DNA from: Gemmatimonadota bacterium
GTDB lineage: Bacteria; Gemmatimonadota; Gemmatimonadetes; Gemmatimonadales; Gemmatimonadaceae
Length of the DNA: 64,000 nt
Assembly (NCBI GenBank): GCA_040388625.1
Contig: JAZKBK010000001.1
Span: forward strand, 248,001-312,000
Reading direction: 5' to 3'
Below, piece after piece: positions 4,562 through 21,171 of this stretch; positions within the stretch are counted from its first letter, which is position 1, and each line of letters opens with the position of its first letter. The position numbers and the translations under genes are program-made. Below the pieces are notes generated by a model, which worked only from the letters and a program-made list of their open reading frames with translations, was not told the DNA's origin and ran no database searches.

Positions 4562-5047
4562 CTACGCCGCGCTCACTCGTGGCCGCGGAGTCCCGTTGTC
4601 GGTCCATGACACGAGCAGCCTCCGAATCGTTCCGCGCGCCGTATCCTGCGTGACGCCAGTCGCCCGCAACGCCGACGTAGTCGGATCATCGTGCACCGAA
4701 ATGATCGCGAGTAACAGGTGCTCCGTTCCGACCCGGCGATTGCCCAGCATCGCTGCTTCCTCCTCGGCGCGCCGAACGATCATTTCGAGCGAAGCCGGCC
4801 TGACCGGAAATCTGCGGAGGCGCAGATTCGCTTCGCGCTCGCGGGAAATCTGATCGGCACGGTCCAGCACCTCGTCGATGCTCACATCGAGCGCGGTGAG
4901 TACACCCCGGGCGAGTGACGGTCCGCACCCTTCGATGGCCCGCAATAGCTCCGTACTTGCCAACGCCGACGGGCGCCGCCTCAACGCGACGCTGGTAAGC
5001 CCCAGCGTATCCTCAGCCCGGTCCGTAAAGCCACTCTTCCACGACAT
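4562..5047 (-). CDS. Clp N-terminal-domain protein
   Basis: 161 residues. Two Clp-N-like repeats are visible. The second is clearest: LEMIVRRAEEEAAMLGNRRVGTEHLLLAI, matching the ClpA/ClpC N-domain helix pattern; the first (FTDRAEDTLGLTSVALRR) is divergent. There is no AAA+ ATPase module, so this is a stand-alone adaptor-type domain like ClpS-independent N-domain proteins of unknown role. It ends 13 bases from the dehydratase gene's end in convergent orientation. Confidence 0.75.
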   Translation of the reverse strand: MSWKSGFTDRAEDTLGLTSVALRRRPSALASTELLRAIEGCGPSLARGVLTALDVSIDEVLDRADQISREREANLRLRRFPVRPASLEMIVRRAEEEAAMLGNRRVGTEHLLLAIISVHDDPTTSALRATGVTQDTARGTIRRLLVSWTDNGTPRPRVSAA

Positions 5048-15206: not shown

Positions 15207-16004
15207 ATGCCAGACCAGATAGCCGAACAGCCACCCGAAACACTCGAGGGGTGGTACGTTCTGCACCAGATATATCGAATCGACCGGGAGCGGAACACGC
15301 CCGCCGGCACCGCAGAGAGCGACGTCTTCGGACCCACGAAGGAACGGGGCCAGGGATGGAGCGAAGCGGTTGCGCTCATCGGCTCGACGTCGGATGTGAT
15401 GTTCATCCACTGCCGGCCGACGCTCGACGCGATCGGCGATGTCCAGCGCGAGCTGGCTCGGCAACCGTGGATGCGCCGGCTTGTCCCGACCTACTCATTC
15501 TTGAGTGTCACGGAGGCCGGTCTCTACCACATGACGGCCAGGATCGCCGACGAGGCGATCGCGCGCGGCGGAACGGTTGGTGATGCCGACTACGTTGCCG
15601 CAGTCAAGGCAAAGGCGGAAACCGAGCGAACCAACCCGTATGTCCAGCGGCGGCTCCATCCGCAGCGTCCCGATACGATGCCGTACGTGTCGTTCTATCC
15701 GATGTCCAAGCGCAGAGACGTCGGTCAGAACTGGTATTCGCTCCCGATCGCGGAGCGAAGCCGGTTGATGCACGAGCACGGACTGAGCGGACGGCGTTAC
15801 GCCGGTCGCGTGCAGCAAGTCATCACCGGAGCGATCGGGTTCGACGCGTGGGAGTGGGGAGTGACGCTGTTTGCCGGCGATCCGCTCGACTTCAAGAAGA
15901 TCGTATCGGACATGCGCTTCGACGTCGCGAGTGCGGAGTACGCGGAGTTCGGGCCGTTCTATGTAGGCAAGGTCGGCGCGCTCGCCGAGGTGCTGGGCGG
16001 ATAA
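15207..16004 (+). CDS. chdC: Coproheme decarboxylase (ChdC/HemQ), chlorite-dismutase family
   Basis: 265 residues with a strong Shine-Dalgarno (GGAGGAG) before ATG 15207. The heme-binding half has the ChdC signature: FYPMSKRR, then NWYSLPIAERSRLMHEHGLSGR, VITGAIGFDAWEWGVTLFA and MRFDVASAEYAEFGPFYVG. This is the HemQ branch, not the chlorite-degrading branch. ChdC uses H2O2 to decarboxylate coproheme to protoheme, the last step of the coproporphyrin-dependent pathway. The other heme genes of the window are about 16 kb away on the opposite strand. Confidence 0.93.
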   Translation: MPDQIAEQPPETLEGWYVLHQIYRIDRERNTPAGTAESDVFGPTKERGQGWSEAVALIGSTSDVMFIHCRPTLDAIGDVQRELARQPWMRRLVPTYSFLSVTEAGLYHMTARIADEAIARGGTVGDADYVAAVKAKAETERTNPYVQRRLHPQRPDTMPYVSFYPMSKRRDVGQNWYSLPIAERSRLMHEHGLSGRRYAGRVQQVITGAIGFDAWEWGVTLFAGDPLDFKKIVSDMRFDVASAEYAEFGPFYVGKVGALAEVLGG

Positions 16005-16024: not shown

Positions 16025-17431
16025 TTAGAACTGATAGTAGAGGAATGGCGAGTTCGTGCCATTCATGAATAGGTACGCGACGAGAAAGCCGGCGGCGTAG
16101 ACGCCGGCCCATCGTCGTGTAGTTCCGAATTTGAAGTTCCACGTCTCGGGCAGGAACGCGATCGCAAGCAACGCGACGCCGATCCATCCGAGAACCATCG
16201 GCGTGGCAGGCAGCGAGACGTCACGCGACAGTCCCACGGCCAACATGCTCCTGAGCCAGCCTGCGGCCATGCGCAACGACGTTGCGCGGAAGAACACCCA
16301 TCCGATGACCACTAGCGCGAAGGTCTGGGCGCGATAGACGATCGGCGGATATCGCTTGAACACGGGATGGAACCACCGGTCGATGATGAGCAACACACCG
16401 TGGTATCCGCCCCATATCACAAACGTCCAGCCTGCTCCGTGCCAGAGTCCGCCGAGCAGCATGACGATCATCACATTGACATAGGTGCGTCGCTTGCCCT
16501 TGCGATTGCCCCCGAGTCCGATGTACAGGTAATCGCGCAACCACATGGAGAGACTGATGTGCCATCGTCTCCAGAAATCCTGAATGCCGAGCGAGCGGTA
16601 CGGTGCGTCGAAGTTCTGCGGAATCCTGAGTGAGAACAGATAGCCGAGTCCCACGGCCATGTCGGAATATCCGCTGAAATCGAAATACAGCTGGCAGGTG
16701 TAGCCCAGGGCCGCGATCCACGCCTCGCCGAACGTGAGTGCGTGGATCGAGCCATTCGCGTAGGACGCGAGCAGGGGATCGATGCCGGCGCCGATGTGAT
16801 CGGCGATGATCACCTTCTTGATCAGTCCAACGACGAAGAACCCGATTCCGATCGCGATCCAGTCGCTGCGCGGCGGTCCGTCGATCTGTTCGAGGTCAGC
16901 CTCGATCTGGCGATAGCGGACGATCGGTCCCGCGACGAGCTGCGAGAACAGACTGACGTAGGTGAAATACTCCGCGATGTTGCGTGTCGCCTTGACGCGT
17001 CCGTTCGCGACGTCGACGACGTACGAGATCGTGTGGAACGTGTAGAAGCTGATTCCGATTGGAAGGACGATGTGCAGCGCAGCCGGTTGCGCGCGTACGT
17101 TTAGCCAGTCGAGCGCGATTCCAAGATTCGCGGCGACGAAATTGTAATATTTGAAGAAGCCGAGGAGTGTGAGATCGACGCTCACCGCACCGATCAGCCA
17201 GGCGCGTTTGCGGCTTCGCGATTCAGTACCATCGATTGCAAGTCCGGTGACGAAGCTCACGATGCTCGAGAAGGCGAGCAGGATGCAGAAGCGCCAGTCC
17301 CAGTAGCCGTAGAAGACGTAGCCGGCGATCGCGAGCAGGACGTAGCGCTGTTGTTTCCCTTTCGAGAGCCAGAACAGCCCGAAGACGACTGGCAGGAACG
17401 CGAACAGGAATACGTTTGAATTGAAGATCAT
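16025..17431 (-). CDS. MBOAT family membrane O-acyltransferase, AlgI-like
   Basis: 468 residues. It starts MIFNSNVFLFAFLPVVFGLFW, typical of the AlgI/DltB group, and carries the catalytic-histidine region GGLWHGAGWTFVIWGGYHG. About 11 membrane helices are predicted. Such proteins pass acyl groups across the inner membrane to acetylate polysaccharides outside. Its ATG overlaps the stop of the SGNH-like gene by 4 bases (ATGA), giving the usual two-protein O-acetylation unit. No polysaccharide polymerase is adjacent, so the acceptor is unknown. Confidence 0.9.
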   Translation of the reverse strand: MIFNSNVFLFAFLPVVFGLFWLSKGKQQRYVLLAIAGYVFYGYWDWRFCILLAFSSIVSFVTGLAIDGTESRSRKRAWLIGAVSVDLTLLGFFKYYNFVAANLGIALDWLNVRAQPAALHIVLPIGISFYTFHTISYVVDVANGRVKATRNIAEYFTYVSLFSQLVAGPIVRYRQIEADLEQIDGPPRSDWIAIGIGFFVVGLIKKVIIADHIGAGIDPLLASYANGSIHALTFGEAWIAALGYTCQLYFDFSGYSDMAVGLGYLFSLRIPQNFDAPYRSLGIQDFWRRWHISLSMWLRDYLYIGLGGNRKGKRRTYVNVMIVMLLGGLWHGAGWTFVIWGGYHGVLLIIDRWFHPVFKRYPPIVYRAQTFALVVIGWVFFRATSLRMAAGWLRSMLAVGLSRDVSLPATPMVLGWIGVALLAIAFLPETWNFKFGTTRRWAGVYAAGFLVAYLFMNGTNSPFLYYQF

Positions 17432-18483
17432 CTTGCGGCCACCGTTTCGGTGCTGCCGGTGCCTGCATCCCGCACTGCCGTCGCAAGTGAGTGAGCGACC
17501 GCGACCGCGTTTGTACTATCGAAGTGCATGCAGTCGTACCAGCCCGTGCGGCTTGGGAGGTTCGTCGTGCCGTCCTCGTCGGTCATGGTGACCAGGGGCG
17601 GTCTCGCGCGAGAACGGAGATAGGCGACCACCCGTTCATAGTTCGCGCTGATCGCCGGCTTGCCGCGAAGCGAATCGGCGAGTGCGGGGTTGAACGGCGG
17701 TATCCAGAGAACGATGTGCACTCCTCTGGCAGTCGCCTCCGATATCAGCGAGTCCAGCATCGCGCGCTTGGAGGCGGCCAGGTTGTCGTAGGTCGCGAAT
17801 TCGTTCTGCTGCACGGCGGCGCAGCCGGCGTAGTGTTGCTGCCAGTTGTACGTGCCCGCCCTGCGCTCGCGATCGGCCTTGGGGTATTGCAGGATCCCTT
17901 CGGCGCTGAACGAGTACGCCGGTTCGGGGGGATGCGCGGCGTTCCGCACTGACTTGATGACGTCGGCGAGATATGAGACCGTGAGCGCGTCGCGGTACGC
18001 TCGCGCAACGACGATCGCGCGTTTGATCTTACTGTCCACTGAACCGCTCAGCGCCGTCGAGAGGCGCGCGTTGTGTGTCAGCTCAGGGAGTGGTCCGATG
18101 TGCGCGTCGAACGACTGCGGGTCGATTCCCACGACGAGGTTGCGTAGGTTCGGTGCTTTCGCGAGCACGTAGCGCGTGATCGCGAGATCATCCTCGATCG
18201 TCGCATTGAAGACGCCAAAGTTGAAGAAGCGCTCGCCCGTGACGGACGTGAATTCGTCGGTCGGAAGATTCATCGAGCGGCTGGAGCCGATGATCACGCC
18301 GGACGGCGGCTCGTGGGCCAGACTGGAATCGAAGAGATCGCCCTTTAACTGACGCGTATTCAGCTGGAGGGCGGGGAAGCGAGTTCCTGAGAACTCCCGG
18401 CGAGGGTTGACGACCGCCAGTGCACTGAGCAGAACGCCGGTGAACAGTCCGATCCATCCCAAAAATGCCCAGAGAAATCTCAT
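17428..18483 (-). CDS. SGNH-hydrolase-like membrane-anchored protein, partner of the MBOAT enzyme
   Basis: 351 residues. An N-terminal signal anchor (FLWAFLGWIGLFTGVLLSAL) precedes a periplasmic domain. Candidate catalytic elements are the serine in GSSRSMNL and the D-x-x-H pair in WYDCMHFDS near the C-terminus, as in the DltD/AlgJ/AlgX-type SGNH proteins. It probably transfers acetyl groups supplied by the MBOAT protein. ATG 18483 was chosen; GGGGG lies very close upstream, and an in-frame TTG at 18501 is possible. Sequence similarity to a named family is weak, so function rests mainly on context. Confidence 0.7.
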   Translation of the reverse strand: MRFLWAFLGWIGLFTGVLLSALAVVNPRREFSGTRFPALQLNTRQLKGDLFDSSLAHEPPSGVIIGSSRSMNLPTDEFTSVTGERFFNFGVFNATIEDDLAITRYVLAKAPNLRNLVVGIDPQSFDAHIGPLPELTHNARLSTALSGSVDSKIKRAIVVARAYRDALTVSYLADVIKSVRNAAHPPEPAYSFSAEGILQYPKADRERRAGTYNWQQHYAGCAAVQQNEFATYDNLAASKRAMLDSLISEATARGVHIVLWIPPFNPALADSLRGKPAISANYERVVAYLRSRARPPLVTMTDEDGTTNLPSRTGWYDCMHFDSTNAVAVAHSLATAVRDAGTGSTETVAAR

Positions 18484-18613
18484 TCCCCCAAGCTTCGGCA
18501 AAAACGGCTGGCCGCTGTAACAGCAATTGCGACAACATCTTACGCCGCTGTTGTGCCGAGGTCGGTCGTGCGGTAACTTTCGGGTTCGTTATCTGGCGGA
18601 TGAGAGCCGGAAA

Positions 18614-18687
18614 CGGGATGTGGCGCAGCCCGGTAGCGCACCTGAATGGGGTTCAGGGGGTCGCAGGTTCAAATCCTGTCATCCCGA
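18614..18687 (+). tRNA. tRNA-Pro (anticodon GGG)
   Basis: 74 bases folding as a cloverleaf: acceptor CGGGATG/CATCCCG with discriminator A, D-arm GCGCAGCCCGGTAGCGC, anticodon stem CCTGA/TCAGG with loop ATGGGGT (anticodon GGG), and T-arm with GGTTCAAAT. CCA is not encoded. A terminator follows at 18715. Confidence 0.95.
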
Positions 18688-18714
18688 TTAAAGACATTGC
18701 TGATAAACGATTTG

Positions 18715-18736
18715 CGGCAGCCTAGGCTGCCGTTTT
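18715..18736 (+). terminator. Rho-independent terminator after tRNA-Pro
   Basis: A palindrome CGGCAGCCTAGGCTGCCG is followed directly by TTTT and a further TTTT after CG. It lies 28 bases past the tRNA. Confidence 0.8.
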
Positions 18737-18868
18737 CGTTTTCAGGGGGGCTTTGGTGACTATGCGCCATCCCATGCCACGGACCACACGGGATCGTCCG
18801 CCCCCTGCTGTAACCTTCCTGTCAGATTGGGACGCTAGCTTCCTCCTCGACCTTTTCAGGAACTCACT

Positions 18869-19810
18869 ATGTTCGGGATCCGCTCGCTGTTCGCTGCTGT
18901 TGCGCCTGTCTTCCTCGTCAGCACTGCTGCGATGGCGCAGACGTCCCATTATCACGTCGTGAAGACAATCGAGATCGGCGCTGCGCGCGCCGACTACATC
19001 ATCATCGATCCTGTCGGCCGCCGGCTCTACGGGCTCGGCGACAAGGTGATAGACGTCGATAACGACTCCATCGTCGGGACGGTCGAAGGTGGAGGAGGCG
19101 GCTACGCGATCGACCACGAGGACAACCGCGGCCTGGTGCGCAACGGCACTCTCTTCGATCTCAAGACCCTCGCCGTCACCGGCCACCTCGACATCAAGGG
19201 CGACGGGAGCCGCTACGATCCCGTCACTCACCGCGCGTTCGTCTGGGAGGGCAAGGACGGTTGGGTGGTCGACATGCGCACAGGCACGCTGGTCTCGAAG
19301 ACGATGATCGGGGACGGTCTCGAGTCTGCCGCGGCGGACGGGCACGGGAAGCTGTATGCCGCGATCGAGGAAAAGGGCGGCCTGGAGCAGTTCGATACGC
19401 GAACGCTGAAGATTGAAAAGACGTGGGACGTCTCCGGGTGCGGCCGCGCGCAGGGGCTCACGATGGACACACAGACGCGTCGCATTTTCATGGCGTGCGA
19501 TACCGATGTCGTCGTGCTTAACGCCGACAACGGAAGCGTCGTGTCGCGCGTCCGCGTCCCGAGCCGCGCCGATATGAACTGCTTCGATCCGACGACAAAG
19601 CTGGTGTTCAATCCGAATCGCGCCGATAGCACGTTGTCGGTGATCCACGAGGATTCGCCGTCCAAGTTCACCGTCGTCGAGAAGGTTCCAGAGGGTGGAG
19701 CAGCGCGCACCTGTGCGGTCGATGAGAAAACTCACAAGGTGTACGTGTTCTATTACGAAGGGAATCCGCGCCAGGGCGGCAAGCTGCTCGCGTCCGTGCT
19801 GGCGCCGTGA
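18869..19810 (+). CDS. Exported YncE-like beta-propeller protein
   Basis: 313 residues with a signal peptide ending AAMAQ. The mature chain has repeated blades of about 40-45 residues with motifs like RRLYGLGDKVIDVD, HRAFVWEGKDGWVVDMRTG and RRIFMACDTDVVVLNADNG. This matches the YVTN/YncE class of secreted seven-bladed propellers. The role is unknown. It is enclosed between an intact tRNA-Pro and a degenerate copy of that tRNA's 3' part, and its stop codon lies 13 bases before that copy, suggesting it came in as a small insert at the tRNA. Confidence 0.8.
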   Translation: MFGIRSLFAAVAPVFLVSTAAMAQTSHYHVVKTIEIGAARADYIIIDPVGRRLYGLGDKVIDVDNDSIVGTVEGGGGGYAIDHEDNRGLVRNGTLFDLKTLAVTGHLDIKGDGSRYDPVTHRAFVWEGKDGWVVDMRTGTLVSKTMIGDGLESAAADGHGKLYAAIEEKGGLEQFDTRTLKIEKTWDVSGCGRAQGLTMDTQTRRIFMACDTDVVVLNADNGSVVSRVRVPSRADMNCFDPTTKLVFNPNRADSTLSVIHEDSPSKFTVVEKVPEGGAARTCAVDEKTHKVYVFYYEGNPRQGGKLLASVLAP

Positions 19811-19822
19811 CGCGCTGCCGTC

Positions 19823-19872
19823 GCACCTGAATGAACTTCCCGTGATCGCAGGTTCAACTCCCGTGATCCCGA
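19823..19872 (+). pseudogene. Degenerate copy of the 3' part of tRNA-Pro
   Basis: These 50 bases align without gaps to 18637-18686, close to the 3' end of the tRNA-Pro, with 40 of 50 positions identical. The conserved blocks are GCACCTGAATG, TCGCAGGTTCAA and ATCCCGA. Differences cluster in the anticodon arm, so it cannot work as a tRNA. Weaker likeness to the D-arm continues upstream. This is the pattern left by integration or duplication at a tRNA gene. Confidence 0.75.
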
Positions 19873-19879
19873 CGTCGTA

Positions 19880-19922
19880 ATTCAAAGCCCCGTCAACGAT
19901 GTGCGTTGACGGGGCTTTGAAT
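19880..19922. terminator. Long perfect hairpin, probable bidirectional terminator
   Basis: Perfect 19-bp arms (19880-19898 and 19904-19922) with a 5-base loop lie directly after the degenerate tRNA copy and after the propeller gene. There is no T-tract apart from CTTTGAAT at the end of the right arm. Confidence 0.65.
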
Positions 19923-20023: not shown

Positions 20024-20485
20024 TTGCCTGACGCATTTCAAATTCGCCCTGTGCGACGCTCGGATCTGGCCCGGTGGCTGCCGCTCTGGGATGGATACAA
20101 CGCCTTCTACGGACGCAGCGGCGAGACGGCGCTCGATCCGGAGATCACTCGCGTAACGTGGGAGCGATTCTTCGATGACAGTGAGCCGGTGCATGCCATG
20201 GTTGCGGAGAGTCGCGATACGCTGATCGGGCTGGTCCACTACCTTTTCCATCGCAGCACGATCATGACCGGACCGAACTGCTATCTCGCCGATCTCTTCA
20301 CGATCGAAGGCGCGCGCGGCAGGGGAGTGGGACGTGGTCTGATCGAAGCGGTGTATGATCGTGCGGCGAACGCAGGATGCAAGCGCGTGTACTGGCAGAC
20401 GCACGAGACGAATCTGACGGCGATGAAATTGTATGACGGAGTCGCCGAGCGATCAGGGTTCGTTGTTTACAGGAAGATGTTGTGA
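20024..20485 (+). CDS. GNAT family N-acetyltransferase
   Basis: 153 residues from a TTG at 20024 with GGAG 8 bases upstream. It has the acetyl-CoA binding motif RGRGVGRGLIEAV preceded by the strand NCYLADLFTIEGAR, and a C-terminal YWQTHETNLTAMKLYD as in GNAT motif B. It transfers acetyl groups from acetyl-CoA to an amine; the substrate is unknown. Similar proteins are often annotated as RimI-like or small-molecule acetyltransferases. Confidence 0.88.
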   Translation: MPDAFQIRPVRRSDLARWLPLWDGYNAFYGRSGETALDPEITRVTWERFFDDSEPVHAMVAESRDTLIGLVHYLFHRSTIMTGPNCYLADLFTIEGARGRGVGRGLIEAVYDRAANAGCKRVYWQTHETNLTAMKLYDGVAERSGFVVYRKML

Positions 20486-20541
20486 AGTGCGGTAACGTGC
20501 ATGCTCGCCTTCTGTCAAACCATCAACAAGGAGAAAGATTG

Positions 20542-21171
20542 ATGAAAGGTTACATCTCCGGTGCAGCTATCGCGGCTTTGCTCGCGGTTGCCATCGCGCC
20601 CGTGACCAGTGCGCAACAAGCTCCGCCGCCGCCCGCGACCGAAGCTGGCGCGGCGCTGCTGGCGATTCCGAATCTGCCGGCGAAATCCGGTGCCAGGCTG
20701 ACGGTGAGCAGTCCCGCGTTCGCGCCAGGCGACGACATTCCGTTCGAGAACACCTCGTACCGCGGAAATGTCTTTCCCGGTCTGAAGTGGTCCGCCGGAC
20801 CGGCTGGCACAAAATCATACGCGGTGATAATGCAGGACGGCGACGCAATGTCGCGTGGCGCGCCGATTCTTCACTGGACGATGGTGAACATCCCATCGAC
20901 GATGACGCAGCTCGATGCAGCGATGAGCGAGCCGCCAGCCGGCGCGCAGTACGGTCCCAACATCCGCGGGCCGGCGCACGCATACATGGGCCCGCACACG
21001 CCTCCGGGGCCGAAGCATCGCTATCACCTGCAGGTCTTCGCACTAGACACGTCGCTTCCCGCTGAATCGCTCGCCACCTACGCCGATCTTACCGCGGCGA
21101 TGAAGGACCACGTGCTCGCGAGCGGCGAAGTCATCGGTCTCGGTCAGGCGCCGCCTGCCACGACACCATAA
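20542..21171 (+). CDS. Exported PEBP family protein (YbhB/YbcL type)
   Basis: 209 residues from ATG 20542 with AAGGAGAA just upstream. The signal peptide ends VTSAQ. The body shows the phosphatidylethanolamine-binding fold motifs: SPAFAPGDDIPFENTSYRG, SYAVIMQDGDAMSRGAPILHWTMVNIP, and the late block GPHTPPGPKHRYHLQVFAL. Bacterial YbhB/YbcL proteins are of uncertain function. The export signal shows a periplasmic location. Confidence 0.88.
   Translation: MKGYISGAAIAALLAVAIAPVTSAQQAPPPPATEAGAALLAIPNLPAKSGARLTVSSPAFAPGDDIPFENTSYRGNVFPGLKWSAGPAGTKSYAVIMQDGDAMSRGAPILHWTMVNIPSTMTQLDAAMSEPPAGAQYGPNIRGPAHAYMGPHTPPGPKHRYHLQVFALDTSLPAESLATYADLTAAMKDHVLASGEVIGLGQAPPATTP

Follow-up and report, generated by a model that had tools for sequence, protein, structure and literature searches.

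Under the Islander definition, genomic islands targeted to tRNA or tmRNA genes are required to contain an integrase gene and to span at least 2 kb (PMC4383910). Additive flexible genomic islands (fGIs), which are formed by tRNA-targeted gene cassettes, have been described in Alteromonas (PMC4119200), Ca. Actinomarinales (PMC7771536), and Methylophilaceae (PMC10872708). Tycheposons are described in PMC10872708 as elements of 4–200 kb with a tyrosine recombinase gene. In addition, integration-derived tRNA fragments have been described as pervasive in prokaryotes (PMC9897764).

The locus reported here lies in a 64,000-nt stretch of Gemmatimonadota DNA (contig C1:248001-312000 of genome G000; hereafter, the window). 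The ends of Islander-type islands are marked by an intact tRNA gene and a same-strand displaced 3' fragment, and the window has the same arrangement, with the fragment downstream of tRNA-Pro(GGG). The enclosed unit lacks the tyrosine integrase and is shorter than the 2 kb of the Islander criterion, so the Islander survey method would discard it. We consider it very probable that this locus is an old, integrase-less, single-gene insertion (~1.2 kb) at the 3' end of tRNA-Pro(GGG), i.e., a "tRNA-targeted gene cassette."

The tRNA-Pro(GGG) locus and its contents

The features of the locus and its flanks are as follows.

15207..16004 (+), HemQ/chlorite-dismutase-family gene, conserved left flank (Pfam PF06778, E 2e-50)
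18614..18687 (+), intact tRNA-Pro(GGG) (ARAGORN; Rfam tRNA, 61.9 bits)
18688..18747 (+), new 3' flank of tRNA-Pro with a terminator-like hairpin (18715-18732 plus a T-rich tract)
18808..18841 (+), putative promoter: 18-nt 7-4-7 direct-repeat box (CTGTAACCTTCCTGTCAG), 10-nt spacer, TAGCTT
18869..19810 (+), cargo gene for a YncE-like seven-bladed beta-propeller, exported (predicted)
19822..19872 (+), degenerate copy of tRNA-Pro positions 24-74, read as a displaced att half
19880..19922 (+), 19-bp perfect hairpin (CAAAGCCCCGTCAACG hairpin), probably the terminator that tRNA-Pro originally had, now displaced
20024..20485 (+), GNAT acetyltransferase gene, right flank, order as in G002
20482..21171 (+), PEBP-family protein gene, right flank kept in G000, G001, and G002 (alternative start 20542)

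The direct repeat formed by 18637-18687 and 19822-19872 spans 51 nt on the same strand without gaps, and 41 of the 51 positions (80%) are identical. The initial annotation had reported this same match one base shorter (40/50, at 19823-19872), together with the perfect 19-bp hairpin that is indeed present behind it. The match exceeds chance by far. Compared with the 10 mismatches of the copy, the runner-up ungapped match to the same 51 nt in the 64-kb window has 24 mismatches on the plus strand and 21 on the minus strand, and none of 100 windows of 64 kb simulated with a first-order Markov model gave a match with fewer than 21. A BLAST search against a tRNA set identified 19822-19872 as the sole tRNA fragment in the window. 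The copy has no tRNA-like fold and is not called as a tRNA gene by ARAGORN or Rfam. Its homology to tRNA-Pro ends at tRNA position 24 (CGCACCTGA); to the left, there is no convincing D-arm homology, and the end of the propeller gene itself occupies that place. The distance from the end of the tRNA to the end of the copy is 1,185 nt.

Between tRNA-Pro and the copy, there are a terminator-like hairpin and a single open reading frame (18869-19810), and nothing more. This agrees with the initial annotation, which had described one exported propeller gene and a terminator with no integrase, the propeller fold being a prediction. The only PF00589 match on contig C1 is at C1:579467, and there is none near the site. 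The reading frame encodes 313 amino acids, and its start resembles a signal peptide. The AlphaFold2 model (pLDDT 89) has a low-confidence N-terminal leader and 28 strands, consistent with seven blades of four, and the product is predicted to be a seven-bladed beta-propeller. The best PDB match is E. coli YncE (TM 0.76), with which the predicted protein has fold and export in common. However, the two are only 18% identical in sequence, and the score against the NCBIfam equivalog model NF052280 (27.3 bits) is far below the cut-off of 400. The composition check suggested by the initial annotation (GC 0.627 and GC3 0.81 for the propeller gene, compared with a GC of 0.626 for the window) is uninformative on origin, since the composition of the probable donor, a relative, is similar.

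The site at 18808-18841 fits the geometry of a Pho box, with an 18-nt box, a 10-nt spacer, and a -10-like hexamer. Comparable sites lie upstream of 15 other propeller orthologs (16 of 16 in all), being weakest in a few. No such promoter was found near pstS loci, which counts against the reading as a PhoB-type Pho box. We regard the site as a putative Pho-box-like promoter that appears to move with the propeller gene. In G002, a similar site is also found before a TonB-type receptor gene (L109, 3210-3243).

Comparison with congeners and origin of the propeller gene

The tRNA-Pro(GGG) sequence is the same in G000 and its congeners G001 and G002, and the HemQ gene precedes it in all three. The order in G002 is HemQ, tRNA-Pro, an 815-aa TonB-type receptor, propeller, degenerate copy, hairpin, GNAT, and PEBP, with an insert of ~4 kb. 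The order in G001 is HemQ, tRNA-Pro, two other genes, and PEBP, with neither the propeller nor the copy at this site. HemQ, tRNA-Pro, and PEBP are therefore the fixed borders of a variable site, and the insert is present or absent between close relatives at a conserved position, as in genomic islands. The comparison of related genomes proposed by the initial annotation thus found a congener without the propeller and the copy. None of the congeners has a clean empty site, in which tRNA-Pro would be followed directly by a hairpin of the 19880-19922 type; G001 holds other genes there. This hairpin is shared only with G002, where it also follows the copy. Apart from G002, it most closely resembles the terminators that follow intact tRNA-Pro genes in other genera. 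For these two reasons, it most likely represents the terminator that tRNA-Pro had before the insertion, now displaced.

The propeller proteins of G002 and the window are 99% identical, and the copy plus hairpin is 83% identical over 108 nt. The copies in G000 and G002 share five changes relative to the tRNA, and three of four (G000) and four of four (G002) of their diagnostic positions have genus-specific tRNA bases. The insertion therefore predates the G000/G002 split and involved a tRNA sequence of the genus type. The copy is of this type, as is the 3' half of the intact tRNA, and neither tells which of the two the insert brought. The two copies differ from each other at 10 of 51 positions and the propeller genes by 5%, as expected for an unconstrained remnant.

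Between HemQ and tRNA-Pro, the window also contains a gene for an MBOAT acyltransferase and one for a 357-aa partner without a Pfam match (16025-18501, minus strand). These two genes have no counterpart at this position in G001 or G002, which points to a second insertion or a loss beside the tRNA.

The propeller is more similar to its homolog in G017, which belongs to another genus (89% identity), than to that of the congener G001 (68%). In contrast, HemQ has the opposite pattern (62% to G017 and 84% to G001). The propeller gene is patchily distributed, with 14 of 395 genomes of the phylum having the gene at this level. Moreover, the 60 nt behind the window tRNA-Pro best match the tRNA-Pro flanks of G068 and G017, both of genus g15 (alignment scores of 63, 63, and 60 for this genus; runner-up, 44; highest score with shuffled sequence, 34). 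Both the propeller gene and the left end of its insert thus indicate the same donor genus. These comparisons show that the propeller gene was acquired horizontally, and the identity reversal relative to HemQ, the patchy distribution, and the g15-like flank together constitute the foreign content expected of a tRNA-integrated island. No propeller gene was found in plasmids, phages, or viral contigs; the matches in plasmid DNA were to the tRNA only.

tRNA 3' ends as insertion sites in related genomes

The tRNA-Pro(GGG) gene is a hotspot across the family. The genomes compared are mostly draft assemblies, and many are MAGs. When searched with the 27-nt tRNA-Pro 3' end (at most three mismatches), at least 15 of the 148 family genomes have two or three same-strand copies on a contig, 1.4–57 kb apart; these copy counts are lower bounds because several contigs break at the repeat. 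The reversed 27-nt pattern, used as a control on the same 148 genomes, gave none among the matches listed. Contigs of G030, G046, G090, and G103 start or stop at tRNA-Pro 3' copies, i.e., at draft assembly breaks. The left edge of most downstream copies is the anticodon loop, ~43 nt from the tRNA end, which is one known crossover site of tRNA islands (PMC4383910). Among the 18 intervals listed, three have a PF00589 integrase (11.4 kb in G007; 9.0 kb in G096, with a short ORF; and 32.9 kb in G148), and the integrases of G007 and G096 are 46% identical over 130 aa. The genome-wide Pfam search, which diverged or broken integrases could escape, detected none in the other 15, and 11 of these 15 span less than 6 kb. 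In this family, the tRNA-Pro site most commonly holds a short insert that has no integrase. An insert of the same size as that in the window is found in G043, which belongs to another family: a perfect copy with its left edge at tRNA position 23 lies 1.1 kb downstream of tRNA-Pro, and the enclosed 226-aa gene has no Pfam match.

Some tRNA-Pro loci have additional repeats. In L029, L032, L040, and L139 (G044, G024, and G020), a second imperfect inverted repeat lies ~100 nt behind tRNA-Pro, past the terminator, and is followed by ~20 nt of the tRNA-Pro 3' end (TCAAATCCCGCCGTC...); in L139, a similar unit of repeat and tRNA end is found again 5 kb away. These units may belong to a repeat family in which the tRNA end is carried along. 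In L122 (G007:C15), two tRNA-Pro 3' fragments (3247 and 8650) have opposite orientations, and the stretch read contains no tRNA-Pro gene.

Three other explanations of the window locus were considered. The initial annotation had also considered a tRNA duplication that trapped a cargo gene, in which tRNA-Pro was duplicated in tandem, the propeller was captured between the copies, and the second tRNA decayed. A terminator follows the copy, and the homology, by reaching position 24, extends farther 5' than the usual anticodon-loop edge, both consistent with such a duplication. However, tRNA positions 1-23 have no homologous counterpart, and the propeller 3' end found in their place is conserved in G017 up to the third nucleotide after the stop codon. 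Furthermore, the perfect copy of G043 has a similar left edge while enclosing different genes, and all 12 fragments recovered with full-length tRNA queries on the cargo loci are 3' ends. Given these fragments and the stop of homology at position 24, a duplication is improbable. Even more improbable is that the cassettes form a self-contained family with an att motif of their own, AACGACTTACGG, downstream of the tRNA. This motif is enriched, with eight sites (at most two mismatches) after tRNA-Pro 3' ends compared with 0.1 in shuffled sequences. Yet the motif corresponds to the outer stem (AACGAC...GTCGTT) of the local terminators, and the window's genome has a related form of it at another tRNA-like 3' end, outside tRNA-Pro(GGG) (L089); its candidacy as an integrase arm site is thus largely refuted.

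The third explanation, also raised by the initial annotation, is that the unit is the remnant of a larger integrase-bearing island at tRNA-Pro, which lost most of its genes and left the propeller, with G002 keeping one more. The ~4-kb insert of G002, with the TonB-type receptor beside the propeller, is in line with this idea, as are the absence of this receptor from G000, G001, and G003 (E ≤ 1e-120) and the occurrence of integrase-bearing islands at tRNA-Pro in other genomes. On the other hand, neither G000 nor G002 has a trace of an integrase at the site, and most short family intervals at tRNA-Pro likewise lack one. In addition, the window tRNA flank resembles the tRNA-Pro flank of another genus rather than a truncated end of the G002 insert, and in G039, the propeller alone makes up a 1.25-kb unit. 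We consider this explanation possible but rather unlikely.

The propeller gene is also found at other tRNAs. The G039 propeller (69% identity) lies exactly between two 3' copies of tRNA-Lys(TTT) at that 1.25-kb spacing, with a similar terminator after each copy; an intact tRNA-Lys and another single-gene interval come before. In G024 and JAICLH010000164, it is contained in inserts of 4.1 and 4.9 kb, respectively, between the genes for tRNA-Ser(CGA) and tRNA-Ser(GGA); in the window's genome, 76 nt separate these two tRNA genes, and synteny to G024 is found on one side. In G001, the propeller gene begins 300 nt downstream of tRNA-Gly. At the other 10 of the 15 propeller loci, nothing beyond chance-level tRNA scraps lies within 0.8 kb, so the gene lives elsewhere too. 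In G024 and G010, the low-scoring tRNA-Ser or tRNA-Gly scraps located before the propeller were borderline and set aside. In L154 (G061), a tRNA-Ile 3' fragment (4869-4911) lies ~5 kb upstream of a propeller ortholog.

The first interval of G039 contains a second cargo gene, which encodes a secreted protein of 556 aa and has matches in 8 of 395 genomes, G039 included. tRNA fragments near this gene derive from Lys (G039), Phe (G041), Pro (G051), and Ile (G007). Beyond these loci, the sampling of tRNA fragments relied on searches and on 400 kb of same-phylum regions chosen regardless of tRNAs, and these 400 kb contained none. In L220 (G007:C16, 1067-11168), three tandem tRNA-Ile 3' fragments lie on one strand, and the tRNA gene is absent from the stretch; this is probably another cassette array.

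Proposed mechanism and comparison with described systems

Taken together, the congener comparison, the horizontally acquired gene, the family hotspot, and the propeller between tRNA-Lys 3' copies lend good support to the central claim of the initial annotation, namely the integration of mobile DNA at a tRNA 3' end; of its interpretation, the tRNA duplication is disfavored. In the preferred reading as a single-gene cassette, the insert would have consisted of a terminator, a promoter, and the secreted beta-propeller gene, joined at the tRNA-Pro 3' end. Recombination in the tRNA 3' half would have left a complete tRNA at the left end and shifted the other tRNA 3' copy, together with the old tRNA terminator, to the right, after which the fragment decayed. 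Because integrases sit in some longer tRNA-Pro islands and not in the window unit, we infer that the recombination would have been carried out by a larger helper element or by a tyrosine integrase provided in trans. The window's genome has integrase-family genes elsewhere that are only distantly related to those of the tRNA-Pro islands, and none of them is linked to the tRNA-Pro site. Alternatively, homologous recombination between tRNA ends may have been the route. The window unit has no integrase, no circular form of it was seen, and the copy at 19822-19872 is too decayed for an active site today.

A tentative extension, possible but less likely than not, is that one- to few-gene cassettes without an integrase circulate as a pool in Gemmatimonadota and use several tRNA 3' ends with helper integrases in trans, i.e., an integron-like system with tRNA ends as att sites. 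In such a pool, the propeller (at Pro, Lys, Ser, and Gly) and the 556-aa protein (at Lys, Phe, Pro, and Ile) would pass from one tRNA site to another and from genus to genus. In this poorly studied phylum, a tRNA fragment that can be spotted by eye marks a site of gene capture, and such sites there contain mainly small units in which no integrase was detected and which standard island finders discard by design. The recurrence of cargo behind different tRNAs makes it testable how recombinase-less genes reach tRNA sites and what ties one gene to many att sites.

Among the described systems, integron cassettes have attC sites and IntI, whereas the repeats here are tRNA 3' ends with terminators. 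Tycheposons resemble the window unit as tRNA-bordered cargo elements, differing by their recombinase gene, which the window unit lacks. Additive cassettes, as in the window and its relatives, are added behind a tRNA, have a partial tRNA repeat at the cassette end, and vary among close relatives at a fixed site, with multiple cassettes per site across relatives. The units described here differ from them in belonging to a different phylum, in being single-gene, and in having the same cargo behind several tRNAs in different genera. The class of mechanism is therefore known from genomic islands and additive cassettes, and the window adds a minimal integrase-less unit in a new phylum; the novelty lies more in the repeated occurrence of the same cargo genes next to different tRNAs.
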